From Saprospiraceae bacterium (GTDB taxonomy: Bacteria; Bacteroidota; Bacteroidia; Chitinophagales; Saprospiraceae): 44,900 nt of DNA. The position numbers and the translations under genes are program-made. Location: assembly GCA_020629615.1 (NCBI GenBank), contig JAHDCZ010000012.1, positions 6,219 to 51,118 on the forward strand. The letters are read 5' to 3'. Below the pieces are notes generated by a model, which ran no database searches, had not been told where the DNA came from, and saw only the letters and a list, made by a program, of their open reading frames with translations. Shown here piece after piece: positions 1 to 36,173 of the stretch (the stretch's first letter is position 1; each line of letters opens with the position of its first letter).

Positions 1-2371
1 TGTCATCGTCCGGATCAGACGGAGTGCCATTATCATTACATACTACATTAGAAAACACAGCCATAATATCGCATTCATCCGAACATGTTGCCGGAGCATT
101 CACCGTTACCGTCGCCGTACAAGATGGATCATCTACATCAGTAATCGTAAAACTCAAATTACCACCTACAATATTATAAGGTCCAAAACTTGTCAGCACC
201 CCATAACTTCCTGTCGTATTATTGGGATCGTTGGCACTCCAACTTGTCCCTGTGTTACTCCCAGTCACCGTCACATCGAAAGTGTATGTATCATCACTCG
301 GATCTGTCGGCGTACCATTATTGTTGCATTGTACATTCACAGCACTCGCCATGATCATACATTCATCCGAACAGGTCATTGGCGCACTTACATCTATCAT
401 CGCCGTACATGACGAATCATCAACATCCGTAATCGTAAAACTCAAATTACCATCCGATATATCATATGGACCAAAGCTCGTTACTACACCATAATTTCCA
501 CTCGTATTATTTGGATCATTCGCTGTCCAACTCGCGCCTGTGTTACTTCCCGTTACCGTCACATCAAAACTAAACGTGTCATCACTCGGATCACTCGGTG
601 TCCCATTATCGTTGCACTGTACATTCACAGCACTCGCCATAATCATACATTCATCCGAACAGGTCCCGGGGGCCGTTACTGTCACCGGAGTCGTACAAGA
701 AGCATCGTTATTATCCGTTATCGTGAAATTCAAATTGCCATCCGCTATATTGTAAGGGCCGAAGCTCGTCACCACACCATAGTTTCCTGTCGTCCCATTC
801 GCATCATTCGCATTCCAACCCGTACCCGTATTACTCCCCGTTACCGTCACATCAAAAAAGAATACATCATCACTCTGATCCGTTGGCGTACCATTATCAT
901 CACACACTATATTCGCTGCACTTGCCATGATATCACAGTCATCCGAACACGTCATGGGTGCACTGACATCTATCATCGTCGTACACGTCGGATCATCAAC
1001 ATCCGTAATCGTAAAACTTAAATCCCCATCCGTTATATCATAAGGGCCAAAACTGACACTCACTCCATACAGTCCTGTCGTGTTGTTTGGATCATCTGCC
1101 GTCCAACTCGCGCCAATATTCGAGCCCGTCACCACTACATCAAAGCTGAACGTATCATCGCTCGGATCACTTGGCGTACCGCCATCGTTGCATAAGATAT
1201 TACTCACCACTCCCGCTATACTACAGGTTCCTGAACAGGTATTTGGGGGTGTCACCATAATCATTGTTGTACATGTTCCGTCCGCATCATCTGTTATCGT
1301 TATATTCATCGGACCATCTGCTATATTAAAGGGGCCAAATACTACCGCAACTCCATAACTGCCACTCTCTCCGTTTGGATCATCTGCACTCCAGCCTATT
1401 CCCGTGTTACTCCCGGTCACTGTTACACTAAACGTGTATGTATCATCGTCTGGATCACTCGGCGTCCCATTGTTATTACACACTGGAGAGCCAACACTTG
1501 CCATAATCACACATTCATCCGAACAAGTCATCGGTGCTGTTATATTCAACGGCGTTGTACACGTCGGATCATCAACATCCGTAATCGTAAAACTTAGATT
1601 ACCGTCCGCTATATCATAAGGGCCAAAGCTCGTTTCTACACCATAGCTCCCTGTTGTATTGTTTGGATCATTGGCCGTCCAACTCGCTCCTGTATTTGTA
1701 CCTGTCACCGTTACATCAAATGTAAAGGTATCATCACTTGGGTCACTTGGTGTCCCATTATCATTACATACGATATTTGCTTCTACCGCCATGATTGTAC
1801 AGGCATCCGAACAAGTCGGGGGCACTGTGATATTCACCATTACCGTACACGTCGGATCATCAACATCCGTAATCGTAAAACTTAGATTACCATCCGCTAT
1901 ATCATAAGGGCCAAAGCTCGTCACTACCCCATAGCTTTCTGTCGTATTGTTTGGATCGTTGGCCGTCCAACTCGTTCCTGTATTTGCTCCCGTTACCGTC
2001 ACATCAAAGGTATAGGTATCATCACTTGGGTCACTTGGTGTCCCATTGTCATTACATACGATATTCGCCTCTGCTGCCATAATCGTACAAGCGTCCGAAC
2101 AGGTCGGAGGCACTGTTACCATGATCGTCGTTTCACAAAATGAATTGTTCGCATCCGTAATCGTGATCGTTAAATTTCCATCTGATATATTATATGGACC
2201 AAAACTCGTCACCACGCCATAACTTCCTGTCGTATTATTTGGATCATCTGCTGTCCAAGACGATGCTGCATCCCCGCCAGTTACCGTCACTTCAAAGGTA
2301 TAGGTATCATCACTTGGATCACTTGATGTCCCATTATCGTTACACATCACATTGGTGAAACTTGCCATAAT
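1..2371 (-). repeat. Tandem 288-bp (96-residue) coding repeats, 8 full copies plus a partial ninth
   Basis: Read on the minus strand, units start at 2371, 2083, 1795, 1507, 1219, 931, 643, 355 and 67; the last is cut by the window edge. The conserved anchor (IMA at the start, CSD near the end) recurs at exactly 288 bases every time, with no indel across eight full copies. Each unit has four conserved cysteines near positions 10, 79, 91 and 95. It also has an acidic loop (CNDNGTPSDPSDD), a conserved SFGPYDI block and a second acidic turn (TITDVDDP). The length and strand pattern suggest an Ig-like beta sandwich. Calcium binding by the Asp/Asn loops and disulphides are inference. I do not recognise a named family. 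Confidence 0.93.
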
Positions 2372-4963
2372 GTTACTTACTGTCACTGTCACATCAGCCG
2401 TCGATTCACAATAACCCGAATCGTCCGTTACCGTCACCGTATAAGTCGTCGTCATCGTAGGACTTACATTCACCACTGGATTCGTTCCTAGACCATCGCT
2501 CCATTCATAAGTGCCTCCGCCCGTCGCCGTTAAAGTAGAACTCTGGCCTGGACATATTGTCATCGGGCTCGCTGTAGCTCCAGCCGTAGGGGGAGTACAA
2601 TTTATTCCATAGTATTCCATACATATATCTCCTAACGTATTTAGGAAACAAATCGGATCATCAATAATAAATTCTACACATAAGACATAAGTCCCATTTG
2701 GCGTTAAGCCCGAATATTCAGGATTGAAATCTGTACCTACATCGTTTGCTTCGTCTGTATCTGGAATTTCTGCCGCACCTGAACAATTCCCTGAAGCATG
2801 TAATTCAAAGGAATTAATTAAGGTAGGGAAACATGCAACTAAAGAGCCTTCCGCAGCAAGCGCTATCCCAAGAAATCCATTCGCATCCGCTTGCACTTCA
2901 AAGCAATTTGTAAATATCGGAGGATCAACAAAACTTCCAAATATGTCACAATCAGGTTGCCAACATGAATTAGGATTCGCTGTTCCTCCTCCTGCCCATG
3001 ATCTATCATCGTAGGTATCAACACTTCCCATTCCTGTATCCGTACATGGCATATCACATGTGCCACAACCAGTACTACCGCAAGATTCATAATCAAAATG
3101 AAAAGGTCCAGAAAAGTCGACACAATCATCACCGTTAGAATCTATATTCGTAAACGAACAAGAGGGTGCACAATTACCACAATCAAGGGTCACGGGTACA
3201 ACCCATATGTCTGAAACACCATAGGTCATTGACATCCCTTCATTATTAACATCCGTAAATGGATTTGTTGATATTAATTCTACAAAACAACCTCCTGTAT
3301 AACTGTTCTCATCTGTAAGATCCAGTCCTCCTGGATCACAGGTGAATATTGCATAAGCCAGTTCCGATGCAGTACATGACATATCCTGTGGTGCATTCGT
3401 TCCATCAAAATTATAATCCAATAATAAATCTTCACAACATAGAACGGTATAGTCTCCAGGTAATTCTTGCCCATTGGCCGGTGCAGTCACTCCTGTTATA
3501 TCATAGGTGCCCGCGTCTGCACTGCACGTAGGATCCGCAGTACAATCCAACCAAGAGGATCCCGAACCTCCCCAGGAAATATCAAATCCGATACTATTTG
3601 CCGTCCAATTATCTATAAAGAGAAAATACCCTTCTCCAGGTTGTACAATTAAGGGTGCAACAAAACCGTCACCATTAACATCTTCAGAAGTATCAGTAGC
3701 GCCGTTTCCTAAACCAGTATCAGGGCAAAAAGTGCAAGCAGCTCCAGCAAATGAACATCGAACAGGTGAACCCAAATTGTCACAATCCACATTAGGCCCA
3801 AAGAGAGCAAAATCATAATCTACAACCCCACTTCCCAATGGACTCAATGTAAATTCCAAAGTTTGATTTGCAGGAGCGGCATCATCAATTTCAAAATAAT
3901 ACCAAGCGGTCTGATGCTCTCCAAGCGCAATACATCCCGGATCATTAAGAGGACTTGCAAAATCATCCATTCCAGGACCCGAAGGTGTAAAAGCTACATT
4001 CGCATCACTGCAAATAACTGTAGCACCCGTACAATCGCTTTCAGGATCACCAGAACCAGAAGAATTGCCATAAACACAAATATCAAAATCAGGAAAACTC
4101 TCAGTAGAGCTAGACCAACTATGAACCCTTATGAAATAAGTATTGCCAATGGTTAATCCTACTGTTAAAATAAATTCTGTTGCAAATGCAGTTTCATCAT
4201 CTGAACAATATTCAGAAATGAGAGATCCACAAGTGCCACTGAACAATTCGACTACACCATCAAAATCAGAAAACAATTCGATAACTGGATTATTAGAAGT
4301 AGCTTGAAAACTAAACCATACATCATCATTTGAGGTTCCAGCACAACTACTTATACCCGAATCTGTCGCTCCTAATATATCCGAAGAAATAAAAGAACAG
4401 GTTGATGTTTGAGTTAAAGATATGGCCCCATTACAATCATCATTTATCGGACCACTGGAATTTCCTGACTCATAAATGCATATATCAAAAGTTCCTCCAC
4501 CTGTAGAATATTCAAAAATTTGGATATAATAATAATCCCATGTCGTATCGTCCCAAATAAAAGTTATTGTCTCTGTACCATTCGCAGCAGTATCATCCGA
4601 ACAATCTATTTCTCCATTCGATGTGCAAGTCAAACCAATAACTCCAACCACTGAAATCACGGGGTCCATTCCCGAAGTACCCGTCACTTCAACGGTATAT
4701 TCTGTCCCATTCACACCTCCTAAAATCCAATACCATCCTTCATCATCTTCATCTCCGCCTATAGCACATGAAGCCGTAAATTCTGGATCATCCGAGAATC
4801 CAATTGTTGAACCTGACGTTGTAACACAAGAACTACCGACGGATATTGAAGTCGCTGTACAAAAACTATCCCCTTGAGCTGAAGAGTTGATGATTATCAA
4901 AACGAAAAAAAACAAGGTTAAGACTTGTTTATTAAAAATTACGTTTTTCGTGTCATCAAACAT
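1..4963 (-). CDS. Giant secreted repeat protein, 3' end beyond window
   Basis: The frame is open from the ATG at 4963 to the left edge: at least 1654 codons with no stop. Residues 1-30 look like a signal peptide: a charged start, the core LTLFFFVLIII, and likely cleavage near SSAQ. Residues about 30-290 hold two beta-rich modules resembling bacterial pre-peptidase C-terminal (PPC) domains (DDVWFSF and YFIRVHS blocks). Further Cys- and Asp-rich modules run to about 785. An Ig/PKD-like module (TICPGQSSTLTATGGG) spans about 788-864. From residue 865 on, the protein consists of 96-residue repeats to the edge. The architecture is typical of T9SS-exported adhesins of Bacteroidota. The C-terminus, where a sorting domain would sit, is not visible, so the export route is inferred. 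Codon use changes at about residue 790. The gene has its own upstream gap, separated from the next gene by a terminator. Confidence 0.88.
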   Translation of the reverse strand, partial: MFDDTKNVIFNKQVLTLFFFVLIIINSSAQGDSFCTATSISVGSSCVTTSGSTIGFSDDPEFTASCAIGGDEDDEGWYWILGGVNGTEYTVEVTGTSGMDPVISVVGVIGLTCTSNGEIDCSDDTAANGTETITFIWDDTTWDYYYIQIFEYSTGGGTFDICIYESGNSSGPINDDCNGAISLTQTSTCSFISSDILGATDSGISSCAGTSNDDVWFSFQATSNNPVIELFSDFDGVVELFSGTCGSLISEYCSDDETAFATEFILTVGLTIGNTYFIRVHSWSSSTESFPDFDICVYGNSSGSGDPESDCTGATVICSDANVAFTPSGPGMDDFASPLNDPGCIALGEHQTAWYYFEIDDAAPANQTLEFTLSPLGSGVVDYDFALFGPNVDCDNLGSPVRCSFAGAACTFCPDTGLGNGATDTSEDVNGDGFVAPLIVQPGEGYFLFIDNWTANSIGFDISWGGSGSSWLDCTADPTCSADAGTYDITGVTAPANGQELPGDYTVLCCEDLLLDYNFDGTNAPQDMSCTASELAYAIFTCDPGGLDLTDENSYTGGCFVELISTNPFTDVNNEGMSMTYGVSDIWVVPVTLDCGNCAPSCSFTNIDSNGDDCVDFSGPFHFDYESCGSTGCGTCDMPCTDTGMGSVDTYDDRSWAGGGTANPNSCWQPDCDIFGSFVDPPIFTNCFEVQADANGFLGIALAAEGSLVACFPTLINSFELHASGNCSGAAEIPDTDEANDVGTDFNPEYSGLTPNGTYVLCVEFIIDDPICFLNTLGDICMEYYGINCTPPTAGATASPMTICPGQSSTLTATGGGTYEWSDGLGTNPVVNVSPTMTTTYTVTVTDDSGYCESTADVTVTVSNIMASFTNVMCNDNGTSSDPSDDTYTFEVTVTGGDAASSWTADDPNNTTGSYGVVTSFGPYNISDGNLTITITDANNSFCETTIMVTVPPTCSDACTIMAAEANIVCNDNGTPSDPSDDTYTFDVTVTGANTGTSWTANDPNNTTESYGVVTSFGPYDIADGNLSFTITDVDDPTCTVMVNITVPPTCSDACTIMAVEANIVCNDNGTPSDPSDDTFTFDVTVTGTNTGASWTANDPNNTTGSYGVETSFGPYDIADGNLSFTITDVDDPTCTTPLNITAPMTCSDECVIMASVGSPVCNNNGTPSDPDDDTYTFSVTVTGSNTGIGWSADDPNGESGSYGVAVVFGPFNIADGPMNITITDDADGTCTTMIMVTPPNTCSGTCSIAGVVSNILCNDGGTPSDPSDDTFSFDVVVTGSNIGASWTADDPNNTTGLYGVSVSFGPYDITDGDLSFTITDVDDPTCTTMIDVSAPMTCSDDCDIMASAANIVCDDNGTPTDQSDDVFFFDVTVTGSNTGTGWNANDANGTTGNYGVVTSFGPYNIADGNLNFTITDNNDASCTTPVTVTAPGTCSDECMIMASAVNVQCNDNGTPSDPSDDTFSFDVTVTGSNTGASWTANDPNNTSGNYGVVTSFGPYDISDGNLSFTITDVDDSSCTAMIDVSAPMTCSDECMIMASAVNVQCNNNGTPTDPSDDTYTFDVTVTGSNTGTSWSANDPNNTTGSYGVLTSFGPYNIVGGNLSFTITDVDDPSCTATVTVNAPATCSDECDIMAVFSNVVCNDNGTPSDPDDD

Positions 4964-5029
4964 TGTTTTAAGGAATATAATTTCTTTAAAATCGGTCACT
5001 TTAAGATTTGTCATATTTGGTTCTTTGAA

Positions 5030-5042
5030 TTCGCCGAAAGGC
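5030..5042. repeat. Dispersed short repeat, variant copy (TTCGCCGAAAGGC)
   Basis: This differs from the copy at 37663-37679 only by G/C swaps at two positions and, like it, is followed by an A run. It lies in the gap upstream of the repeat-protein gene. See the finding on the GGCTTTCGCCGAA word. Function is unknown. Confidence 0.55.
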
Positions 5043-5235
5043 AAAAAGTAAATCGCAAAAACAGGAGAAACCCAAAATATTGTTTAGCTAAGGACTTAGA
5101 GAAAAAAGCTAGTATGTCTTTGTTTCAAATCGCGGTTTTAATACAAAACTCTTATGAAACCCCAAGATTTCGAGGGTGATAATATTAAAGACGCCCTCTA
5201 ATTTTCCAGAATTATTCTGTACAAAGCGAGAAAAA

Positions 5236-5290: not shown

Positions 5291-7123
5291 TTAATCTATA
5301 CGAATTAATCTAGTAACAGCCTTTTCTTTTCCATTGCCATTATTGATTTTCAAGGTATACACCCCTGGAGTCAGAATTGACATATCCAATGTCATTTTAT
5401 TTTTAAATAAGCCTCGATACACAAGTTTACCTTGCGTATTGTACAAACTAACATGATGATCAATTAAATCAATATTTGAATCTAAATTGACAACACTTCT
5501 TGTAGGATTCGGATAAGCTTCTAACTTGAATTGATCGTGATTATCAAATCGAACCGACTTAATTTCAGTTAAAAACCCATTTCCATCATAATCAATTTGG
5601 TTCAATCGATAATAATTTATTCCTAACAAGATATTATTGTCAACAAACTCATAATTGTTTACATCGAAAGTTGTCCCTGCTCCGTTGACTCGACCAATAC
5701 TTGTAAAATTGATCCCATCAGCACTTCGTTGAACATCAAAATAGTCATTATTGATTTCTTGCTCCGTGATCCATACCAATCTAGCATTTCGTCCCATTTT
5801 ATAAACCTCGAATGACGTAAAGACAACCGGTAAAGCAAAGTTCTGATCTATAATAGAACCGCCAGAATGTAAGTCATATGTTACCCCATTGATTACCGTA
5901 CCTTCTTCAAAAGTATTATAGGTCGTTGCATTAATTTCAAGTACAACTCCAGGAATTACATTGGGAATTGTATAGTTTCCACTACCATCTGTAGTTATCG
6001 GATATTCCACATCAGTTGTCATATCACAAACTGTCGGGTTATTACAATATGTCACAACTATTATGTCCATAACGTTCGCTGCCGGGTTAGTACCATTGGT
6101 ACCGTCATTATTGTTGTATAGGGTTCCGGAAATTGTAGCATATTGAAATAATCCAGCATCGACATCCGATTCAGAAAGATTACCGCTGTTTAATGTAATC
6201 CCTGGAACGGTTCCTCCTCCTGCACCACTCGTAGCATCACTATCATCTGTATCCGCTCCAACATCTTGAGAAGTAAATTCGTCATAAACAGTAGTTCCAT
6301 CATTCATTCCAAACTCAACTTGATAATTACTATAGGCCAAGCCGTCAAAACAATACGTTCCATCTGTCAATGTTGTCGCAATCCGTGACGGTCCATCGTC
6401 AGTATTATTACAAACGCCATCAGGACCACAATCCAACAAGGTGACCGGTATTCCACTTATCACAACATCTGATCCTGTACCATCTCCAGCTTGATTACCT
6501 TGCGTTCCATCAGCGAAGTTATCAAGAAAAGTTAATCCTTTCACGCTACATCTCTGACTTACTCCTAGATTAGATTGTTGCGAGTCATCGGCAATCTGAT
6601 TCGCAAAAGCAGCTGGACATCCACCTAAAAAACTAGGCACGATGACAACATTGGCATTTGATAAAATAGCTGTACAACTATTTTCAATCATACCGGTAAC
6701 TGTAATTTCTACAGAACCTTGTGGTAAAATTGGATTCAAAGGATCAGAAATATCATAAGTAATATCCACACTATTTGTTCCTCTAAAACAATTATTAACT
6801 GGATCCCAGGTCCAATTGAACATTGGACCATTTATATCCGCCAATCCATTCACTGCTGTATATCTTGGTGGGTCTACTGCATCCATACAAATTAAAATTT
6901 GCCAGCTTCCAATTGGAGCTGTAGCTACTCCGTCACTAGATATCATTGCCCAATCGACAGTTACAAATGTTGTTTCGTTTTCAGCAACACAAGGAACGTC
7001 AAAGTTCATTCCAGTAATTTGAGGATTAGCATCATCTGTTATACAAGGTGCTTGTCCTAATAAGTTCTGATTCAAACATCCTAGAAATAAAAGGATACAC
7101 ACTATTTCGAATATATTTTTCAT
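5291..7123 (-). CDS. Secreted protein with SdrD B-like domain and T9SS type A sorting domain
   Basis: The 610-residue reading starts at the ATG at 7123, which gives a clean signal peptide (MKNIFEIVCILLFLGCLNQN, cleavage near LLGQ). The open frame extends upstream to 7180, but that would overlap the end of the previous gene and bury the signal. Residues about 190-340 resemble an SdrD B-like (Cna B type) module: a KGLTFLDNFADGTQ start, Asp-rich loops and a DDGPSRIATTLTDGTYCF block. A further carboxypeptidase-like beta module follows. The C-terminal 75 residues match the T9SS type A pattern: AYPNPT, a central LYNTQGKLVYRG strand, LTPGVYTLKI, and a basic tail. The protein should be exported across the outer membrane and anchored or released at the surface. 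It starts 28 bases after the stop of the 2264-residue protein, so the two are probably co-transcribed. A terminator follows. Confidence 0.88.
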   Translation of the reverse strand: MKNIFEIVCILLFLGCLNQNLLGQAPCITDDANPQITGMNFDVPCVAENETTFVTVDWAMISSDGVATAPIGSWQILICMDAVDPPRYTAVNGLADINGPMFNWTWDPVNNCFRGTNSVDITYDISDPLNPILPQGSVEITVTGMIENSCTAILSNANVVIVPSFLGGCPAAFANQIADDSQQSNLGVSQRCSVKGLTFLDNFADGTQGNQAGDGTGSDVVISGIPVTLLDCGPDGVCNNTDDGPSRIATTLTDGTYCFDGLAYSNYQVEFGMNDGTTVYDEFTSQDVGADTDDSDATSGAGGGTVPGITLNSGNLSESDVDAGLFQYATISGTLYNNNDGTNGTNPAANVMDIIVVTYCNNPTVCDMTTDVEYPITTDGSGNYTIPNVIPGVVLEINATTYNTFEEGTVINGVTYDLHSGGSIIDQNFALPVVFTSFEVYKMGRNARLVWITEQEINNDYFDVQRSADGINFTSIGRVNGAGTTFDVNNYEFVDNNILLGINYYRLNQIDYDGNGFLTEIKSVRFDNHDQFKLEAYPNPTRSVVNLDSNIDLIDHHVSLYNTQGKLVYRGLFKNKMTLDMSILTPGVYTLKINNGNGKEKAVTRLIRID

Positions 7124-7151
7124 TTTTTTGAATTTATTTTGAAACAAACTA

Positions 7152-10100
7152 TTAGTTAATAATGAATTGACCTTGTGCAAAATTATTCAGTTCAATGACG
7201 TCAAATGCAGTAAATGATTGTATCTGTGCAGTCGTTCCTCCCGTTGAACCAACAATACCAACTGCTTCGAACGACAAACCAATCAAACTTTGAGATCCTT
7301 TTAGAATCTTTTTTCCCGCTTTTAATTGGCAAACGACTTGTGAACCGACCTGGGTGAAATTCCAATCAGCGTTATTCACAGGAATACCACCAAACACGTT
7401 TGCTGTGGTCATTGCTCCACTTACCGTTGATGTAAATGCAGATGTCCCTGGTAATGTAATTGTAAATACAATTTGACCTTCAGAATCTCCTAATCCTATA
7501 TTGTCAATTACGTATATGCCATCACGAGTTTGACCCACTGTAAAAGAAGTTCCATCAATTACGAATTGAGGCGTATATTCTGGTGTAGCAGGAGGAGCTA
7601 GGATGGTAATATAAACAGTTGCCATAGTACATTCCTGAGGTGAACCATCATCACATGTTTCATAAACAAATTGATCATTACCAACAAAATCTTCGTTTGG
7701 AACATATATATAAGACCCATCACTAGCTAAGGTCACTGTTCCATTTGTTGGACCAACCACTGGAGTTGAATTAACAAACTGATTATCACCTTCTGGATCA
7801 AAATCATTTGTAGAAACATTACCAACGATGTTCTCATTAACTGGTCCGATACCTGAATCGTCAAATGCCGACGTAAAATTCCCATCATTTGGCAATACAT
7901 CAATAACTACTGTTGTAATATCACATAATGGGGGTGTACCATTATCACAAATTTCATAATCAAAAGTAACAGACCCAATAAAATCAGTAGGTGGTGTATA
8001 ATTATATGTACCATCTGAGTTAATAATCAAGGTTCCAACAGCAGGCGTTACGATCGGTGTAATTGTGACCGTTAAAGGATCTCCATCTGGATCCGAATCA
8101 TTGGCAATCAAGGAACCTGATATCGGAGTGTTCACTTCTGTTTGACCATAATCTGGGTTAGCTATTGGCCCATCATTTCCTAATGTTGGTGATGGAATCA
8201 CCTCAATGTAAACTGTAGCGATATCACAGGCCATTGGAGAATGAGAATCACAGGTCTCATATTCAAAACTATCTTCTCCAAAGAATCCAGCTGTTGGAGT
8301 ATAAGTATATGTACCATCTGAATTAAGAACAACCGAACCATTTGCAGGATTTGTAACGGGTGTGGTATTCACCGTTTGCGTTTCAGATTCAGCATCATAG
8401 TCATTGATTGAAACATCTCCTGAAACAGCGACATCTTGAACTGTATGATTGTAATCGTTTACTGCTAATGTAGTATTTGGTTTCTCAGGTAATACTGTTA
8501 TGTAAACAGTTGCTTCATCACAAACCATTGGTGAACCATTATCACAAATCTCGTATCTAAATACATCATTTCCTACAAATCCAGTTGTTGGGGTATATTC
8601 ATAGGTTCCATCCGCATTAATAGTAACGGTACCATTTGTAGGATTTGCAGTTGGTATTGTATTTATGGTTTGATCATCTCCTTCAGGATCAAAATCATTC
8701 GCAACAAGATCACCTGAAATCACTTCATCCATTAATCCAATTCCAGAATCATCGGAGGCTCCTGTGGTATTTCCATTATCTGGTACAACATCAATTGTTA
8801 CCGTGGTAACATCACACAAAGATGGAGATCCATCATCGCATACTTCGTATTCAAAAGTATCTGTTCCAACGAATCCACCGTTTGGTGTATAATCATATGT
8901 TCCGTCTGGATTGATCGTCAAGGTACCATTTGATGGAGTAGTAGTTGGAGTCGTATTAATTATCAAATTCTGACCATCTGGATCACTATCATTACTAATT
9001 AAACTTCCAGAAATCGGAGTATCCACTTCAGTTAATCCGTAATCAGGATTGGCTATCGGAGGATTATTAGCGATTGTGGGATCTGGAATGATCTCAATAT
9101 AAACAGTTACATCCTCACAAGCCGGAGGAACAATATCATCACAAACTTGATAAACAAAACTATCCTCTCCTGTTGATCCTGCTGTTGGCGTATAAGTATA
9201 CGAACCATCACCATTAAGGACTAGCATACCATTGGTCGGTCCTGTTACAGGAGTTGTATTCACTGTTTGTGGATCTCCTTGAGGGTCATAATCATTATTT
9301 AAAACATTTCCAGTTACTGCTGTTCCTTCCGAAGTATGTATATAGTCTTGCACCCCAATAGTTGTATTTGGACAGGCTGCAATCATTACTGTCACTGGAG
9401 TACCTCCTTCGCAAGATGTTTCATTTGAATCTTGAATATCCACTGATATAGATGAAGCGATTGTTGGACCGCTTACAGTTCCATCTATTAAAAGCCCAAT
9501 ACCATTTCCCACTCCAGTAACTGTACCTAAAATATCACCAGTTGTAATCCCTAAATCCGTATTGTCCGCAGTAGCTACAATTTGATAGTCTCCGCTTCCA
9601 TCTGTCGCATCAAAAGATAATGAAAATGTTGCATTATTACCATCACACGTATTCTCTGCTGTAACAGCAAGGTTGCTTATTGAACAAGTCACTGGATCGC
9701 AATTTAGATCTGGAACTCCTCCAGCATCAGCTAAGGCTGCTGTAGAATATGGTCCTTTGAAACTAATGTCACATATTTTGACTTCCGCCCATTCCGCATA
9801 CCTAGGATCTGAAGGATCTATAAATACACGAACAAAGTAATAATCCTTCATTGAAGCAGAACCAGGACCATTCATATCATGGTAGACTCTTCTTACTCCC
9901 GAGCCAATCGCAGAATTGGCTGTTTCAGAAGAAGCATCATTATCAGGATCAATATCCCCTAAGGTATCATTGCCATCACAACCATTAATCCCTGTAGTCG
10001 TTGAACTAATGGTCACCTCGGATTCTAAAACTACTGATGAACAAGGATGGTCATAATCCATAGCTCCACCTTCAAGTGCTCCATCTACTCCTGTCGTTCC

Positions 10101-13100
10101 AACAACATAAGTCGTTTGTCCATTATTGTATTGAGATCTTAATTCAAAGTCTAGATCCTGGTCCATTCCAGTTACTTCAATTGCCCAATATGCATTTGTA
10201 GGTGCGTCTACGGGAAGATCGATTTTATAGAATGTTTCTCGCAAGTCAACACATCCTGAGGCGCATTGGCTAATCATCGATTGACTATTGGAACCACAGC
10301 TCCAGCCAGGTGAAATACCAGGACCATCGTTTACTGCTATTTTATATTCTACATTAACCGTAGATGCTTCTTTGTGATATAATCTTAAATAATAGGTTTG
10401 TCCTTCATTCAGATTTCCAAAAACACCCCATGCTTGATCACCAGCTGAACCACCAGTCTCCCATGTTTTTCCTGAAGGATCTGTACTTGGGGTATTGTAA
10501 ATGTCAAGTGACAAAGCATGTCCAGAAACATTTTCAAAAAACACTGATACCCAACTTTTTCCTGTAGTATACGAACCTCCATTTCCCGTAGGCGCCGTAA
10601 ATGAAAACCACACATCTGTTTCTGGAGCGCCATCCACAGGAGTTGTTTCAGTGGCGCCTTGAGCAGACCAAGTTTCTAAATTTGAATAACTAAAACACCC
10701 TACACTTAAGGCTTCTGCATTTGCTGGATCGTCATTACAAGGTGAAGGGTCTGCAGTTTTCCAACTGATATCAAAATCAAATTCATTGAACACTCCAGAC
10801 GAACTATTATCATCAGGTTTAATTCTTAAAAGGTATGAATTGCCTTGGACTAAATCTGATACCGTCCAAGTAGATTGAGGATCATCGAACTGCGCATCTC
10901 CAGCTCCAGATGGTGCTCCATCAAGTACACCACTACAACCTATTAAATTACTGTCACTACATCCGTCATACAAGTACAGAATAGCATCTTCAAATTGTGA
11001 GCCGGCATTATATAAGAAAGTTACAGAAGAAATGGTTTCAGACATTGTAAGATCACATGATCCAACAAAATCAGGAACAGTAACAATATACCAAAGGTCT
11101 CTATCTTCATTAGCATTAATCGCCTGATGATCAACACCGTTACAAAGAGCTGACGAAATATTCGGATGACAATCCGTACTATTTTCAAAATCTCCACTTA
11201 AATAATTCTCAAATCCCAACTCTATAACATAAGGGTTATAATTGACTGCAGGACCTCCATCGTTGACTCCATCAGAAGGGCCTGGTGATGGATCCGTCCA
11301 TCCTAAATTAGTTGGACCTCCGTTCCAAATGTTTTCACAATCATTATTCATTGGGCCAGCTGGTTGAGGATCAGCATTTATCGTTGCATTATCTACTATT
11401 GTTCCTCCGGCCGTTTGTACGACTCTAACAATATATCCACCATCAACAGAAGTATGTAATTCATCTAAGCAAGAAAGTTCTACAATACCATCGGCAGTGA
11501 CCGTTAATGATTCTAAATAGTCTCCTGCTAAATCGTTACAATTATTACTACTAACCGTATTCCCTTTGTACAACAATAAAGTTAGTTCCTCTCCTGCATC
11601 TAATCCACCAACCGTCAATTCTGCAGTAGTTGATGCAGTTGTAAACCCAAATCCATCCGTTGTTGTAAGAGGGTCAAACTGAAACCATAAGTCTCTCCCT
11701 GCGGTAACAGGGTCTGAACCTGAATCAGAAGCGAAATTCATATTTACTTCAGCGCCAAGAACTCCTGTTGGTGGTAAATCAAAACCTGGGAAAGTTTCTT
11801 GCATGATCGAACATGTATTGTTTTCTGCAATTAAATTTGCCGATATGTCAAATGTAGTTGCTGTACTCCCTGTTGGTTTTACAATTCTTATGTTGTAATC
11901 ATTATTTGGAGTCAGGGCATTATCGAAATTCGTAATATTGCTCGCATCAAAAGAGACGATTCCGTCGGCCGAAATACTTGCACAGCCTATTGGGTCAATA
12001 TCACCATTAGAACAATAATTATGCAATAAAACATAAATCTCATCAGCTGTACCAGTAAAATCAATAGCAATATCTACATAGTAATTACTTCCGTTATCCG
12101 GGGTACTTAATGCATACCATAAATCTTCTTCTCCGGTATTGAATGTTATGCCATTGCAAGTTTCACCGTTTACCTCGTCATGCGTATCAGGATCGGCATT
12201 TGCTTGACTGATATCACCACTTTGTGTCACTGGTAAAAATGAATCCGGGTCATTGGTTACATCATCATCGAAACTATTGATATTTAATCCATCATTACAA
12301 ACATCATTTGGTTGTGGTGCTGTTACCCCTATTTGAAAAGCACATTTTACTATATCCGCATCGTTACATGCAGATCCTGCAGCAAGATCGTCATGTGCAA
12401 ACACCCTTAAATATATTGCACTACCTGCATTTGTCGCAGTAAGAACATCACCTCCTTTAAAATGAATGACTCCATCGGTATTGATAAAAGGTCTATCCCC
12501 AGCTTCAACTTCAATTGTCCCATCGTTATCCGAATCTGCAAGTCCTCCAGAACCCGCGGTACCAACATTCAATAAATTCAGGGATCCACATGTACTAGAA
12601 TATGGAAAAACTCCAACAGCACATGTCAATCCTGTAAAATGAACAGAAAATTCATCTGTGCCTGCTGGTAAGTTAATGACATACCAAATATCCTTGTAAT
12701 CGGTATAATAATAAGCAGAATGCTCTGCACAACTTTCTCCTGAACATGTTCCCATTCCCAAAGTATTATTACCAACGTTTTCAAAACAGTTTAATAAAGC
12801 TGCAGGAGCGTCTTTTGTAGCAGTTGTTAAATCGCATGAACTCGTCGTTCCTAAAATATTCACTGCATCCGAACAAGTTTCACCTCCATTACACGATTCT
12901 GTAACCATATAATCCGTTTCACAAGTGACAAAAGCTCCACCAGTAGCTACAATAGTTACTGTATGAGTACCTGTAGCATATCCGGTAAATGTGTATAAAT
13001 TACTCAAAACAGCGTTGGCCTGAACGACCACCCCATCAATCTCAATATCTGCTGCTGTCCCATCTCCAAAACCTGTGACGGTGACTTCAATATCATAATC

Positions 13101-13946
13101 AGCGCTTGTGCAATTCAAGTTCGTTGTATTTACCGTTGCAGCGGGCAAAGTTGAACATTCACACAATTCATTTACAGAAGCGGTTGTAAAATCACAACCT
13201 CCATACGGAGTACCATCAACTAAAAATGTCACTGGAGTATTAGCAGTATAAGGTCCAAAAGTATAAGTACCTGTCCCAACATTTGTTTCAGAATCACTAT
13301 CATTACTTGGAGGTGTAGATGTAATATCCACTCCTGTCCCGTCTCCAATGCTAGAAACCATTAGATCAACGCTAAATTCTCCATTAACACAATCAGGAAC
13401 TAAGGTTGTCGTTGCTATTGGGGCCGTGCATAATGATTCTACTACTGATAAATCATCATAGTACACCCAAAAATCTCCAGCAATCCAATCTGTTCTAAAT
13501 TTCAAATAAACATTTGATCCTGCTGGAGGCGTATAGGTGAAGGATTTGGTTGCACAAGCTGTTGAAGCAGTATGAACAACAGTATATTCAGTAGTCCAAG
13601 GACCACTTGCTGAGGTTCCTGATTGTACCACCATGGTGAAACTGGAAGCTGGAGTTGCACCGCCTCCGGAATAATCAATTACTTTGTAATCAAAGGTAAC
13701 AGTCATTTCTCCCCCTAAGGATGTTCCTAAAGTCGCTGATCGATGTAAATCTCCTTCTAAAGTTGCTGTTGAATAAACATTTTCTCGTACAGACGTTCCA
13801 TTACAAGGGTCCGTAGTCGTTGTCCCAAAACCACTTCCTGTCCAATCTGTCATTGAACTGAAATCTGTGGTATAGTTTACTTGACTTATTGCACAGAGAG
13901 GAAATAATAAAATTAATAAAGTTGTAAAAATCGAAAATTTAAACAT
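7152..13946 (-). CDS. Giant secreted multidomain protein with six cadherin-like Ig domains
   Basis: About 2264 residues from the ATG at 13946, which gives a good signal peptide (MFKFSIFTTLLILLFPLCAISQ). The frame is open to an earlier ATG at 13988 that adds 14 polar residues, so the start is uncertain. Residues about 25-145 resemble a MAM or CUB-like jelly roll (FDYKVIDYSGGG, FWVYYDDLSV). From about 350 to 1400 there are several PPC-like modules with recurring DLWY and YLRV signatures and Cys pairs. Residues 1527-2120 hold six Ig-like domains of the Big_9/cadherin-like kind, each with NDxDPxGD, NGT, GSYTYTP and CDDGSP motifs. The last 145 residues do not match a T9SS sorting domain that I recognise. 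Probably a surface adhesin or matrix protein; the ligand is unknown. It heads an apparent two-gene unit with the 610-residue T9SS protein 28 bases downstream. Confidence 0.87.
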   Translation of the reverse strand: MFKFSIFTTLLILLFPLCAISQVNYTTDFSSMTDWTGSGFGTTTTDPCNGTSVRENVYSTATLEGDLHRSATLGTSLGGEMTVTFDYKVIDYSGGGATPASSFTMVVQSGTSASGPWTTEYTVVHTASTACATKSFTYTPPAGSNVYLKFRTDWIAGDFWVYYDDLSVVESLCTAPIATTTLVPDCVNGEFSVDLMVSSIGDGTGVDITSTPPSNDSDSETNVGTGTYTFGPYTANTPVTFLVDGTPYGGCDFTTASVNELCECSTLPAATVNTTNLNCTSADYDIEVTVTGFGDGTAADIEIDGVVVQANAVLSNLYTFTGYATGTHTVTIVATGGAFVTCETDYMVTESCNGGETCSDAVNILGTTSSCDLTTATKDAPAALLNCFENVGNNTLGMGTCSGESCAEHSAYYYTDYKDIWYVINLPAGTDEFSVHFTGLTCAVGVFPYSSTCGSLNLLNVGTAGSGGLADSDNDGTIEVEAGDRPFINTDGVIHFKGGDVLTATNAGSAIYLRVFAHDDLAAGSACNDADIVKCAFQIGVTAPQPNDVCNDGLNINSFDDDVTNDPDSFLPVTQSGDISQANADPDTHDEVNGETCNGITFNTGEEDLWYALSTPDNGSNYYVDIAIDFTGTADEIYVLLHNYCSNGDIDPIGCASISADGIVSFDASNITNFDNALTPNNDYNIRIVKPTGSTATTFDISANLIAENNTCSIMQETFPGFDLPPTGVLGAEVNMNFASDSGSDPVTAGRDLWFQFDPLTTTDGFGFTTASTTAELTVGGLDAGEELTLLLYKGNTVSSNNCNDLAGDYLESLTVTADGIVELSCLDELHTSVDGGYIVRVVQTAGGTIVDNATINADPQPAGPMNNDCENIWNGGPTNLGWTDPSPGPSDGVNDGGPAVNYNPYVIELGFENYLSGDFENSTDCHPNISSALCNGVDHQAINANEDRDLWYIVTVPDFVGSCDLTMSETISSVTFLYNAGSQFEDAILYLYDGCSDSNLIGCSGVLDGAPSGAGDAQFDDPQSTWTVSDLVQGNSYLLRIKPDDNSSSGVFNEFDFDISWKTADPSPCNDDPANAEALSVGCFSYSNLETWSAQGATETTPVDGAPETDVWFSFTAPTGNGGSYTTGKSWVSVFFENVSGHALSLDIYNTPSTDPSGKTWETGGSAGDQAWGVFGNLNEGQTYYLRLYHKEASTVNVEYKIAVNDGPGISPGWSCGSNSQSMISQCASGCVDLRETFYKIDLPVDAPTNAYWAIEVTGMDQDLDFELRSQYNNGQTTYVVGTTGVDGALEGGAMDYDHPCSSVVLESEVTISSTTTGINGCDGNDTLGDIDPDNDASSETANSAIGSGVRRVYHDMNGPGSASMKDYYFVRVFIDPSDPRYAEWAEVKICDISFKGPYSTAALADAGGVPDLNCDPVTCSISNLAVTAENTCDGNNATFSLSFDATDGSGDYQIVATADNTDLGITTGDILGTVTGVGNGIGLLIDGTVSGPTIASSISVDIQDSNETSCEGGTPVTVMIAACPNTTIGVQDYIHTSEGTAVTGNVLNNDYDPQGDPQTVNTTPVTGPTNGMLVLNGDGSYTYTPTAGSTGEDSFVYQVCDDIVPPACEDVTVYIEIIPDPTIANNPPIANPDYGLTEVDTPISGSLISNDSDPDGQNLIINTTPTTTPSNGTLTINPDGTYDYTPNGGFVGTDTFEYEVCDDGSPSLCDVTTVTIDVVPDNGNTTGASDDSGIGLMDEVISGDLVANDFDPEGDDQTINTIPTANPTNGTVTINADGTYEYTPTTGFVGNDVFRYEICDNGSPMVCDEATVYITVLPEKPNTTLAVNDYNHTVQDVAVSGDVSINDYDAESETQTVNTTPVTNPANGSVVLNSDGTYTYTPTAGFFGEDSFEYETCDSHSPMACDIATVYIEVIPSPTLGNDGPIANPDYGQTEVNTPISGSLIANDSDPDGDPLTVTITPIVTPAVGTLIINSDGTYNYTPPTDFIGSVTFDYEICDNGTPPLCDITTVVIDVLPNDGNFTSAFDDSGIGPVNENIVGNVSTNDFDPEGDNQFVNSTPVVGPTNGTVTLASDGSYIYVPNEDFVGNDQFVYETCDDGSPQECTMATVYITILAPPATPEYTPQFVIDGTSFTVGQTRDGIYVIDNIGLGDSEGQIVFTITLPGTSAFTSTVSGAMTTANVFGGIPVNNADWNFTQVGSQVVCQLKAGKKILKGSQSLIGLSFEAVGIVGSTGGTTAQIQSFTAFDVIELNNFAQGQFIIN
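7587..9368 (-). repeat. Two tandem 891-bp copies, each encoding three Ig-like domains (ABCABC)
   Basis: The six cadherin-like domains are not equally related. Domains 1 and 4 share NTT with VxDYxHT. Domains 2 and 5 share PIANPDYG followed by TPISGSLI. Domains 3 and 6 share DDSGIG with NDFDPEGD. The NTT anchor codons lie at 9368 and 8477, exactly 891 bases (297 codons) apart. The pattern indicates that a block of three domains was duplicated as one unit. The copies have diverged since, so this is not a recent duplication. Confidence 0.85.
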
Positions 13947-14085
13947 CGCAGACTTACGATGAAATTGAGTGTAGAATCTCATATTCATTATTCTGTTTTT
14001 TGTGGATGAAGTAAATTTGTTTTCTTGGGGATCGTAAAAGTATATTTATAAGGCATTTTGTTGAAAAAAAAAGAATTTGATTTGT

Positions 14086-15360: not shown

Positions 15361-16620
15361 TCAACTCACCGCCTCATTCATCAACTCCACAAATTTCCAA
15401 GCATCTTCAAATGAATTATACATCGGTACCGGTGCAATACGAATGACATCTGGCTCTCTCCAATCCGCAATAACTCCCTTCGCTGTAATCTGATCATAAA
15501 GTTTCTTGTCTGCATCTTTAACTTGAATGGACAATTGGCATCCTCGTTCTTCAGGATTACTCGGAGTGATAATAGAGAATTTATTATTCTCGTTTTGAAG
15601 TAAAAGAGACTCTAAGTATCCGGTAAGTTTTTTCGATTTGGTCGTTAAAGCATCCATTCCAGCTTCTTTAAATAAATCGAGCGATGCGCGCATAGCCGCC
15701 ATTGGAAAAATTGGAGGGTTACTTAATTGCCAAGCTTCTGCTGATTTGATAGGAACAAAAGTAGGTTCCATTAAAAACCGAGTTTTCTTTTCACTACCCC
15801 ACCATCCTGCAAATCGATTTAAATGTTCGTCTTCATGATGTCGCTCATGCACAAAACATCCACTTAAAGAACCTGGACCACTATTCAAATATTTATAAGA
15901 GCACCAAACCGCAAAATCCATTCCTGAGTCATGCAAGTTGAGTTGTAAATTACCTGCGCCATGAGCATAATCAAATCCTACCTTACATCCCTTGGCATGG
16001 GCATAACTTGTAATTTCTTTATTACGATACGCCTGACCAGTATAATAATTAACGCCACCAATTAAGACTAAGGCAATTTCATCACCATGTTGATCCAATA
16101 CCTCTTTGATATTTTCTAAACTCACATTCTCTCCTTGATCAGGTTTCAATTCGATTAAACACTCCTCTGGATCATATCCATGATGTTTAATTTGCGAACA
16201 AGTCGCGTATCGATCTGAAGGAAAAGGATTGTACTCGATAAGAATTTTATTTCTTTTGGGGGTTGGACGATAAAATGAAACCATCATCAAATGAAGATTC
16301 ACGGTCAAACTATTCATCACCACCACTTCGGAAGGTTTGGCACCTACTACTTCTGCCATGGTATCCGTCAAAAATTCATGGTAAGGCATCCATGGATATT
16401 TGGCATGAAAATGTCCCTCAACACCAAAAGTCGCCCAATCATCCAATTCTTGATTAATATAGTCTCTACAGTTTTTGGGCTGGAGGCCTAATGAGTTTCC
16501 ACATAAGTATATATGGTCTTCTCCATTTTTTTGTTTTGGGATATAGTATTTATTTCTAAAATCCTTTAATGGATCATTTGCGTCAAGTTCTAAGGCTTTT
16601 TCTTTACTAGAGTCAATCAT
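15361..16620 (-). CDS. kynU: Kynureninase
   Basis: 419 residues, the usual length. This is a fold-type I PLP enzyme that cleaves 3-hydroxykynurenine to 3-hydroxyanthranilate and alanine (or kynurenine to anthranilate). Family landmarks are visible: the N-terminal YLCGNSLGLQP, the PLP-binding aspartate D217 in GFDYAHGAGN, and the Schiff-base lysine K243 in CSYKYLNSGPG. The C-terminal substrate region includes ADWREPDVIRIAPVPMYN. It is the last gene of the tryptophan degradation operon and is separated from the ACMSD gene by a 171-base gap holding a repeat-like, GC-rich element. The other genes in the operon overlap or nearly touch. Its stop codon abuts that of the convergent regulator gene with no bases between. 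Confidence 0.95.
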   Translation of the reverse strand: MIDSSKEKALELDANDPLKDFRNKYYIPKQKNGEDHIYLCGNSLGLQPKNCRDYINQELDDWATFGVEGHFHAKYPWMPYHEFLTDTMAEVVGAKPSEVVVMNSLTVNLHLMMVSFYRPTPKRNKILIEYNPFPSDRYATCSQIKHHGYDPEECLIELKPDQGENVSLENIKEVLDQHGDEIALVLIGGVNYYTGQAYRNKEITSYAHAKGCKVGFDYAHGAGNLQLNLHDSGMDFAVWCSYKYLNSGPGSLSGCFVHERHHEDEHLNRFAGWWGSEKKTRFLMEPTFVPIKSAEAWQLSNPPIFPMAAMRASLDLFKEAGMDALTTKSKKLTGYLESLLLQNENNKFSIITPSNPEERGCQLSIQVKDADKKLYDQITAKGVIADWREPDVIRIAPVPMYNSFEDAWKFVELMNEAVS

Positions 16621-16640
16621 CGTTTTTCATTTTTGTCATT

Positions 16641-16765
16641 GCCTTGCCAGGCGGGCCTTCATTGTTTTTCCTTGATGAAAAAAACGAAGCAAAAAAAATC
16701 AAGACGCCTTAAGGCTTCCCTACAATGCCGCTCCCGCCACCCACCGAAGGCGTCAGGCTGCGCTT
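16641..16765. repeat. Repeat-like GC-rich element inside the kynurenine operon
   Basis: The 171-base gap between ACMSD and kynureninase differs in composition from its surroundings: GC-rich stretches with an A-rich centre. It contains CTTGAT at 16671-16676 opposed to ATCAAG at 16698-16703 around an A-rich core, and the perfect palindrome GCCTTAAGGC at 16706-16715. Similar CTTGAT...ATCAAG elements with A-rich centres are, to my recollection, dispersed in intergenic DNA of many Bacteroidota. No second copy lies in this window, so repeat status is inferred. Confidence 0.45.
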
Positions 16766-16791
16766 CTCTTTTATTCTTATTCCAATATGTT

Positions 16792-17838
16792 CTATTTGCC
16801 ATGAATCCAGTGGATAACGTTTTCTTTCCAAATTCGACCTTTTTCTTCAGAGTTAATTATTCCTTCGGCTTCAGCCTCATCGATCACACGACCTGGGTAA
16901 GAATTTTCTACGCCAGCCATTTCACCCAAGGGATAAGGATCATCCAATCCTGCCAAAATAGAATCTACACCTTGTCGTTTTTTTAATAATTCAAAAGACA
17001 TGGTATCATGCACCAATGTATCAAAAAATAAATTGGGAGCAAACAATCCATCATCTGGGTTGGTCGCTTTTTCAAATAAATCAGGACGTCCTGCGTAGCC
17101 TTGCTTTCTTCTTCCAAAATTTACTTGTCCAAACTGATTCCCATGTGCAAAGCAGATTCTGGTATCTGGATATTTGTTATGAAAATTCAACAGGGTCAAC
17201 ATGTGATAGGTGTCCGCTGTTTGGGCACACATCCATACCAAATGAAATCTCCAAAACTCATCCTCGAGCTTAATCATCTTCGGCGCATCATATGGATGGA
17301 TCTCAATCGCCAAGTTATGATCATCCGCTTTAGCAAATATTGCCTCTGTGCTCATATCAGCAATGGCTTTCCATTTGCCTTCATGAGTTTGAAAATGCGT
17401 GGGTAAGCAAAGCACTTTCATCCCTTTTTTCACGCAACGGTCAATTTCGTCTAAAGCATCATTGACGTGGGCTGCTTGCACTACAAATCCACCGGTAAAT
17501 TTTTCTGGATATCGATTCTGAATATCACAATTGAAATCATTTTGAAATTGGATAACATCCCTTGCTAATGCACAGTCGATGCCATTACAATATAATTGTG
17601 ATAATGTAATCAGTACTTCATGGTCAATATTGTTTTCTTCCATCCAAACCAACTTCTCTTCTACAAAGAAACTCGGATCTGTTACTGGACGCTTCCATGA
17701 TTCTCCCTGACGCATCCATTGCTTATCGTCTTCGACCCAAAATATCTTTTTGTCCTTCATAAATTTTGGAATCTCATGAGGCTCTGGCAACAAATGTGCG
17801 TGGGCATTAATACGATTCATTTGATGTAAATCAACCAT
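16792..17838 (-). CDS. 2-amino-3-carboxymuconate-6-semialdehyde decarboxylase (ACMSD), amidohydrolase family
   Basis: 348 residues from the ATG at 17838. Decarboxylates ACMS to 2-aminomuconic semialdehyde, diverting it from spontaneous cyclisation to quinolinate and NAD. Metal-site residues of the amidohydrolase superfamily are all visible: HAH (H13, H15), IEIHPYD (H181), CFAHGNQ (H232) and GLDDPYPLG (D299). The start was chosen because it gives an ATG-GT-TGA overlap of 8 bases with the dehydrogenase stop, the same overlap length as between dioxygenase and dehydrogenase. Later ATGs, such as 17820, are also possible. Operon context (dioxygenase, semialdehyde dehydrogenase, deaminase, kynureninase) strongly supports ACMSD over other amidohydrolases. 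Confidence 0.92.
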   Translation of the reverse strand: MVDLHQMNRINAHAHLLPEPHEIPKFMKDKKIFWVEDDKQWMRQGESWKRPVTDPSFFVEEKLVWMEENNIDHEVLITLSQLYCNGIDCALARDVIQFQNDFNCDIQNRYPEKFTGGFVVQAAHVNDALDEIDRCVKKGMKVLCLPTHFQTHEGKWKAIADMSTEAIFAKADDHNLAIEIHPYDAPKMIKLEDEFWRFHLVWMCAQTADTYHMLTLLNFHNKYPDTRICFAHGNQFGQVNFGRRKQGYAGRPDLFEKATNPDDGLFAPNLFFDTLVHDTMSFELLKKRQGVDSILAGLDDPYPLGEMAGVENSYPGRVIDEAEAEGIINSEEKGRIWKENVIHWIHGK

Positions 17839-31923: not shown

Positions 31924-32049
31924 AGCGAAAAGAAATTTTATATAGGTCATTGATTTCTTAAAATGTTATCAAAAATGATAGGACAACTTATAATAAGTCC
32001 TAATTGAATAATATCTTACTAAGCATCTAAAGACTTTAAAGATTCACTT

Positions 32050-36142: not shown

Positions 36143-36173
36143 ATTTTTCGTTTTTGTTTTTACGTTATTACAA

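Follow-up and report, generated by a model that had tools for sequence, protein, structure and literature searches.

The DNA analysed here, called the window below, is a stretch of 44,900 nucleotides from a Saprospiraceae bacterium (assembly GCA_020629615.1, contig JAHDCZ010000012.1, here C46:6219-51118; genome of 3.3 Mb in 214 contigs, 79% complete), and it opens inside the gene for a giant exported protein containing a tandem array of 288-bp units. The array comprises at least 25 units, provided that the scaffold join is correct, and the unit is predicted to adopt an immunoglobulin (Ig)/fibronectin type III (FN3)-like fold. As an explanation of the whole we favour, at a probability of roughly 0.53, the view that a fibrillar protein, exported through the type IX secretion system (T9SS), carries the array as a covalently stapled stalk and that such arrays grew partly in five-module blocks. 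In general kind this is a known sort of exported, cysteine-rich stalk; the module from which it is made is unnamed.

Within the window the array lies on the minus strand in a single open reading frame (2-5044; 1681 codons, running off the window edge, its TTG start listed mechanically). A repeat search placed unit starts at 2371, 2083, 1795, 1507, 1219, 931, 643 and 355, with all seven spacings equal to 288, and Tandem Repeats Finder reported 8.0 copies of period 288 over 27-2344 (score 1565), which confirms the eight evenly stepped starts of a preliminary description of this DNA. The units occupy 2084-2371 (unit 1), 1796-2083 (unit 2), 1508-1795 (unit 3), 1220-1507 (unit 4), 932-1219 (unit 5), 644-931 (unit 6), 356-643 (unit 7) and 68-355 (unit 8). 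A ninth, beyond the eight of that description, starts at 67 and is cut after positions 67-1 by the window edge and by a scaffold gap of 100 N (C46:6119-6218) that abuts base 1. The array does continue past the window edge, as had been stated: beyond the gap, after the remainder of unit 9, come 16 more full units at 288-bp steps down to C46:1235. Extending the contig leftwards and counting, as had been proposed, thus gives a total of 25 units (8 full, 1 split by the gap and 16 full), each of 96 residues, and the absence of indels reported for eight copies holds for all of them, as does the absence of stop codons. This total is a lower bound, as the gap may hide further units; should it hide none, the protein would have about 3,700 residues.

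The units vary considerably at their fixed length of 288 bp, as had been noted, with pairwise identities of 52-86% in nucleotide sequence (median 62.8%) and 44-86% in protein sequence. Seventeen of the 96 columns are invariant across the 25 units, among them Trp39, Asp21, Asp22, Asp43, Asp73 and the four cysteines, Cys10, Cys79, Cys91 and Cys95, which were claimed for the window units and are kept in 25/25. A single Lys or Arg occurs in the whole array. Entropy is highest at third codon positions (1.31 versus 0.66 and 0.71), and the median ratio of non-synonymous to synonymous substitution rates (dN/dS) is 0.28 at a median dS of 1.34. These medians cover 225 of 276 unit pairs, the other 51 having been removed for saturated or undefined dS, and the pairs of unit 9 lie outside the set. 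Because third positions vary most and dN/dS is low, we conclude that the array is old and under purifying selection.

Structure prediction of one unit, another suggestion of the preliminary description, was carried out with AlphaFold2. Unit 7 was taken as a module from the preceding cysteine (365-649). A β-sandwich was predicted with high confidence, the single module having a predicted local distance difference test score (pLDDT) of 96.5 and a predicted template-modelling score (pTM) of 0.82, and a model of three successive units (a tri-unit) giving a mean pLDDT of 96.2 and a pTM of 0.68. Foldseek found nothing under E 0.001 for the single module (best 0.22), and VIA-align returned a broad crowd of Ig, FN3 and PKD folds (best Z 7.9, root mean square deviation (rmsd) 2.7 over 90 residues). 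Since neither search gives a closer fold, we assign the predicted structure to a fold class only, the Ig/FN3-like sandwich. The picture of a stalk-like stack of identical modules is therefore upheld as to the predicted stack of folded modules (pLDDT 96) and fails as to 'identical', the protein identities being those given above. Several tandem stalk domains characterise fibrillar adhesins as set out in PMC8286594, and the 25 units, if folded as predicted, would constitute such a stalk.

By sequence comparison, no curated family or PDB entry names the unit in the libraries searched. Against Pfam-A, the 25 units of C46 were scanned singly and those of relatives as tri-units or longer queries. 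None of the 25 exceeded a curated cut-off (best E 0.0062, K319L-like_PKD), and the SprB repeat model PF13573 matched 0/25 at E 1 and one (E 0.00095) of 141 tri-units, 1 from the window and 140 from relatives. Longer queries pass the whole-protein cut-offs of Emfourin (36 bits for P0001, the query protein from the open frame of the window; 33 for the array L121), DUF7601 (27.0, L080) and DUF4923 (23.9, L121), with no single stretch passing in any of the three. DUF7601 matches 19/141 tri-units (best E 2.2e-10) and Emfourin 17/141 (best E 5.9e-8); these recurrent matches possibly reflect a distant tie or mere composition, and both were rejected as the family of the unit, their passes being sums of sub-threshold stretches. 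Altogether 40 Pfam families, across unrelated folds, match at least one of the 141 tri-units at E 0.01. A named Pfam family was accordingly rejected for P0001, the 25 units, the 141 tri-units and 10 chosen tri-units, the matches being weak, scattered over unrelated folds or summed from sub-threshold stretches. NCBIfam gave no match for P0001 and 13 scattered models for the 141 tri-units (best E 0.00014). No PDB sequence matched the unit, P0001 or the profiles A1 and A2 (these two at E ≤10); the five chains met by a third profile, A3, are unrelated, none with an E below 0.64, which is the level of chance. The search for a known family, which had been recommended for UniProt and Pfam, produced no named family in Pfam, NCBIfam or PDB, and no firm match to a known Ig-like family appeared in Pfam or NCBIfam, in keeping with the statement that the repeat could not be named. 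Among the matches listed in the open-licence subset of PubMed Central, the titles and abstract beginnings name the repeat nowhere.

The export of the giant protein, which had been proposed, is borne out by the sequence beyond the array. SprB repeats (PF13573) follow it in three stretches (66.5 bits, cut-off 28), and the C end matches the type B sorting domain models CHU_C (PF13585; 49.6 bits, cut-off 27) and TIGR04131 (42.7 bits, cut-off 35). At position 72 of 85 the match breaks off, seven residues short of the end of C46, so that the contig ends inside the sorting domain. SprA is encoded in the same genome (2145 bits, cut-off 200). Because the type B domain and the SprB repeats exceed their cut-offs and SprA is present, we regard export by T9SS as well supported, and the protein, with a C-terminal sorting domain and a translocon in the genome, would by sequence classify as type B cargo. 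Ahead of the array lies an N-terminal part of 891 residues, 890 of which are encoded by 2375-5044 (minus strand). Near its start is a hydrophobic stretch, LTLFFFVLIIINSSA, that resembles a signal peptide as judged by eye. Residues 201-322 of this part (4079-4444, minus) match the galactose-binding-like domain GBD_T9SS_assoc (PF23759; 35 bits, cut-off 27), which is alone in exceeding its Pfam cut-off, and an Ig_7-like domain (PF19081; 19.7 bits, below the curated cut-off of 27.3) stands just ahead of the array (2378-2590, minus). Eight of the ten PorP-family matches in the genome exceed their cut-offs, all away from the array, and the reading frames next to the arrays L046 and L047 of two relatives, inspected by eye, do not resemble PorP.

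A profile of the 25 units (E 1e-5) matches 124 of 199 genomes sampled within the family Saprospiraceae (99 of 157 good ones) and 7 of 395 across the phylum, five of these outside the family; the unit is thus nameless in the libraries searched and yet present in more than half of the sampled genomes of its family. Named genomes gave 154 confirmed matches, and most of the best 80 of these (73 loci) bear the title Saprospiraceae. Elsewhere in the same genome there is one unit on C205, three to four on C189 and C182, and the broken end of C5. On C5 a protein whose N part is related leads into this repeat family (L013, G000:C5, frame 2126-3) and stops at the contig end after one unit, another array cut short. 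Unbroken arrays in other genomes reach 27 units on a 617,803-bp contig (L046/L056) and 37, the largest number seen, on a 156,034-bp contig (L047/L058); the one-contig genome G062 has 24 profile matches, and open frames with the unit extend to 11,186 residues. In a metagenome-assembled genome (MAG) of Aureispira sp. CCB-QB1, a 4067-residue open frame (L113) holds many repeated domains, six units and, by eye, a type B-like end.

Over 658 junctions, those of C46 included, the unit spacing ranges from 87 to 113 residues with a mode of 96 (n=155). Because of this range, 288 bp is no family-wide rule; the fixed length is a trait of the C46 array and its near relatives. The earlier proposal of selection with length held constant therefore stands for purifying selection and not for fixed length as a general need. 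Among arrays of at least six units, mean identity is lower where length varies more (Spearman -0.30, p 0.017, twin loci included). Near-identical spacing series of 14 units each occur in two Phaeodactylibacter arrays (L089, L093) and in L084, from a MAG. The series of L087 and L112 are equal except for one extra 100-residue unit, resembling a clean gain or loss of one module, and in the twelve units of L069/L052 identity declines steadily with distance (87% at lag 1, 59% at lag 7), in the manner of growth by local duplication. An earlier set used for spacing and period counted some stretches twice (894 units, 97 reading frames, 86 loci searched), and an intermediate set had eight loci removed, among them L051, which has no twin; for the family counts seven twin loci were removed, leaving 775 units, 90 reading frames and 79 loci, in which unit 9 of C46 appears twice, once cut.

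In these family counts the cysteines are nearly universal among aligned units: Cys10 in 744/747, Cys79 in 763/766, Cys91 in 714/724 and Cys95 in 502/502, the remaining units showing gaps of local alignment. A cysteine lies at most 5 residues ahead of the next unit at 649/658 internal junctions and ahead of 76/93 first units, many of which follow the acid tail of a quite different domain (for example L081-L084, L086, L087, L089 and L093). At 100 right edges, where the array gives way to other sequence, Cys91 is retained 96 times and Cys95 52 times; these edge counts are rough, some of the apparently foreign neighbours being diverged units that the model missed (by eye, for example in L015, L062 and L113). 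Because array edges mostly keep the cysteine before first units and often lose Cys95 at right ends, the structural module probably starts at Cys95 of the preceding unit. Placed on an Ig-like topology, Cys95 of the previous unit and Cys79 would lie at one pole and Cys10 and Cys91 at the other, which suggests disulphides Cys95(previous)-Cys79 and Cys10-Cys91. Paired losses bear on the same question: Cys10 and Cys91 are lost jointly in L079 and L075 (L048 is the same stretch), and in L126, a single unit, Cys79 and the preceding cysteine are both missing. Covariation links variable AB-loop columns with the linker (pairs 16-93, 19-92 and 17-94, z 4.0-4.8), and the parallel register of strands A and G is best at offset 80, weakly so (mean z 0.89). 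Covariation as a guide to the disulphides themselves was set aside, the invariant columns 10, 15, 21, 22, 79 and 91 scoring high but meaninglessly.

A five-module period runs through the array. In C46, identity at lag 5 exceeds that at lags 2-4 and 6-8 (permutation p 0.0002 for nucleotide and 0.0004 for protein sequence); the same excess is found in L046 and L057, and in L047 alongside a lag-2 peak. C46, L046 and L047 belong to three genera. The period is also marked in the linkers. The end of unit 4 (1237-1220) encodes CSGTCS, and this type, CSxxCS, recurs in C46 at units 9, 14, 19 and 24, with an extra at 23. It stands at units 2, 7, 12, 17 and 22 of L046 (extra at 23), at units 12, 17, 22, 27 and 32 of L047 (extra at 28) and at units 2 and 7 of L057. 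Shared-register tests covered six arrays, chosen as near relatives. With columns 1-84 alone, the register predicted from the tails is the best of five rotations in 6/6 pairs of C46, L046, L047 and L057, and in 10/10 when L055, the phase of which was fixed partly from an earlier register test, is added. Permutation by shuffling units is too lenient here, arrays with an inner period having only five independent classes; for L055 it gave p 0.004 (with C46), 0.035 (L046), 0.31 (L047) and 0.053 (L057). Relabelling of classes, which replaced it, ranks the predicted register 1, 1, 1, 3, 8, 1, 13, 8, 4 and 4 of 120 for the ten pairs, which are not independent. Asp, Glu or Asn stands at position 93 in 3/24 in-phase units and in 66/85 others of five arrays (2/22 and 63/79 without L055). 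Most fifth linkers therefore do not have the usual Asp, Asn or Glu. Separately, three arrays of 18-28 units (L080, L121) alternate two module types, with lag-2 identity of 57-64% against 50-52% at lag 1.

The favoured explanation would combine these features as follows. A signal peptide and the C-terminal type B sorting domain would bring the protein across the outer membrane, where a PorP-like barrel would probably anchor it. At least 25 Ig/FN3-like modules, placed end to end, each starting at the final cysteine of one unit and closing at the third cysteine of the next, would hold the N part of about 890 residues outwards. The two proposed disulphides would fasten the first strand to the last at both poles. 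Force on the chain would then travel through the 12 residues of strand G alone, and the module could not be stretched open. The acidic AB loops may pack on the short linker, possibly with calcium. Growth would have proceeded by duplication of single modules and of five-module blocks, and the five-fold pattern would persist because of the block growth. The fifth linkers may serve as a hinge or a contact site, which is a guess. A more elaborate version, which we think rather unlikely, is a segmented rod in which doubly stapled, inextensible modules are set five at a time on stiff acid-capped linkers with a softer or contact joint after each fifth. On this view at least three genera of Saprospiraceae would have preserved the design through array growth in fives and through a drift that brought the modules down to about 50% identity.

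Several observations weigh against this explanation. Fibrillar adhesins in the sense of PMC8286594 possess at least one adhesive domain and form a filament on the cell surface, and Pfam detects no known adhesive domain in the N part, where GBD_T9SS_assoc alone exceeds its cut-off. Strict Cys95-Cys79 pairing is strained at array starts, where 16 of the 17 first units without a preceding cysteine, unit 1 of C46 among them, keep Cys79, which would therefore be left single; three more first units have the preceding cysteine and none at 79. Four CCx- and three CCxC rows lack Cys91 at its column and keep Cys10, some with a cysteine a few places off. The edge counts are affected by the missed neighbours mentioned above, and the antiparallel A-G register is nearly as good as the parallel one (z 0.83 versus 0.89). 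As to the period, L055 (8 units) has no lag-5 peak and an ambiguous tail (units 2, 5 and 6), the CSxxCS tail is absent from the first 11 units of L047, and L061 shares no period with the others (p at least 0.16 in each of its pairs; left out of later tests). The Fisher value for position 93 (9e-9) is too good, the phase having first been taken from the tail itself and the arrays picked as near relatives, and units of the same class in different arrays are more alike than those of different classes by only 0.5-2.7 points.

The pattern of cysteines might also be read with Cys91 and Cys95 joined within the linker and Cys10 joined to Cys79 of the same or the next module. The neighbouring Ig_7 domain and SprB repeats, which hold two cysteines each, by eye near the places of Cys10 and Cys79, would suit this pairing, as would the retention of Cys79 in those 16 of 17 first units. 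We nevertheless consider it improbable: Cys95 is missing at 48 of 100 right edges, of which 96 keep Cys91, and a cysteine lies ahead of 76 of 93 first units, so that these two cysteines do not come and go together. More serious is the possibility, to which we give somewhat less than even odds, that the protein is a plain giant adhesin stalk in which neither five-period nor fixed length has a function, marks of an ancestral five-block duplication merely persisting while the constraint of the fold holds the unit at 96 residues. Neighbours at lags 1 and 5 are indeed most alike, identity falls off as units lie further apart (Mantel r -0.31), the period elsewhere is one of two modules (L080, L121) or is missing, which also counts against a general five-module design, and the units of C46 are 59-61% alike among themselves against 50-56% to the other four arrays, pointing to growth within the lineage. 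What such a stalk would leave unexplained is the linker type of every fifth unit, found in the same register across genomes even though whole units have drifted to about 50% identity. In this respect the five-module register lends itself to asking whether super-repeats in stalks record history alone or a mechanical design.

Three further explanations concern the protein as a whole. It might be a gliding adhesin like SprB, a type B protein that PMC9143113 describes as highly repetitive and as travelling over the surface; transported along the cell surface in this manner, our protein would pull the cell, and the stalk would bear traction. SprB repeats, a type B domain at the C end and SprA in the same genome all fit, but 21 of the 22 type B domain matches in the genome exceed their cut-off, so that most of these proteins cannot be gliding adhesins, and the contig end hides any adjoining porP-like gene, of the sort seen beside sprB as sprF; we hold a gliding role to be unlikely. 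That the protein is a subunit of an ordered multi-chain appendage, such as the GhpA grappling hooks of Aureispira, a member of the Saprospiraceae, with the five-module period setting lateral contacts, strikes us as very improbable. The top Foldseek match of the tri-unit is a GhpA fragment (9flw_A, E 2.2e-5), GhpA supplies 7 of 25 chains under E 0.001, and one protein of an Aureispira MAG contains six units; yet the TM-scores are low (0.17-0.21 by query length) and similar to those of unrelated Ig-like stacks, and the single module places GhpA at rank 31 (Z 6.7). GhpA was dropped as a relative, there being no PDB sequence match for A1, A2, P0001 or the Aureispira protein L113, which is not GhpA. 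Equally remote, in our view, is an artefact of assembly or the erroneous joining of two proteins at the gap. The gap has the standard length of 100 N, its two flanks share exactly 55 bases that recur nowhere else in the assembly at up to 3 mismatches, and the protein on C5 likewise ends abruptly after its first unit. Identical flank ends are a habit of graph assemblers. Against an artefact stand the unbroken arrays of 27 and 37 units and the one-contig genome described above, and similarity across the gap in C46 again peaks at lag 5 (69.9% versus 62.7-66.0% at lags 2-4 and 6-8).

Among known systems, the stapled stalk that we favour recalls the ice-binding RTX adhesin of Marinomonas, MpAFP (MpIBP), region II of which is reported to comprise about 120 copies of 104 residues (PMC4083281). 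In both, as far as that report describes, a giant surface protein contains a long series of Ig-like modules of constant length, the Ig-like fold being predicted for our unit, and region II comes near the top of the structural comparison with the tri-unit (5irb_B, Z 8.5, rmsd 11.6 over 254; 4p99_A, Z 6.9). The two differ in that profiles A1 and A2 show no sequence similarity to PDB chains, and in that the copies are identical in MpAFP and 44-86% identical in C46. MpAFP uses type I secretion, unlike the C46 protein with its T9SS signals. In region II, calcium clamps the terminal strands at both ends (PMC5380327), where the C46 modules would have disulphides; the acidic AB loop and linker of the C46 unit hint at calcium. 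In Gram-positive adhesins, such as that of Mobiluncus mulieris with 51 Ig-like repeats, covalent isopeptide, ester or disulphide bonds are described as tying first and last strands into a 'spine' (PMC10619420). Such joining of first to last strand is what we propose for C46, with other chemistry and in another phylum; lysine isopeptides cannot be the rule in an array with one Lys or Arg in 25 units. If the stapling is true, the calcium clamps and isopeptide spines of other giant adhesins would have an equivalent built on disulphides in a Gram-negative phylum.

With SprB and other T9SS type B cargo the protein shares giant size, repetitiveness, SprB repeats and the type B domain; by profile comparison the 25 modules themselves are not SprB repeats. 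Periscope proteins (SasG, Rib, Sgo_0707) are portrayed in PMC8201768 as raising an N-terminal part on a stalk of tandem folded domains, with highly identical repeats whose number varies between strains; the C46 units, at a median nucleotide identity of 62.8% and a maximum of 86%, differ from them in this. GhpA, reported to be secreted by T9SS as a heptamer (PMC11205867), is likewise a giant protein with Ig-like stacks in the PDB, from which our protein is set apart by the missing sequence match and the low TM-scores. Saprospiraceae are described as abundant in wastewater treatment and as including bacteria that attach to others (PMC9304909).

Several other genes of the window, all on the minus strand, may be recorded. 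Two genes upstream of the giant protein, on the same strand, lies a 2278-residue protein (7152-13988) with six Big_9/tandem-95 Ig-like stretches and no match to a sorting domain. Por_Secre_tail domains exceed their cut-off in two further likely T9SS cargo proteins (5291-7180 and 27529-31950). Genes for kynureninase, amidohydrolase, aldehyde dehydrogenase and tryptophan 2,3-dioxygenase at 15361-20384 resemble a cluster for tryptophan degradation by the kynurenine route, and two neighbouring genes at 34451-37526 encode POT-family transporters.

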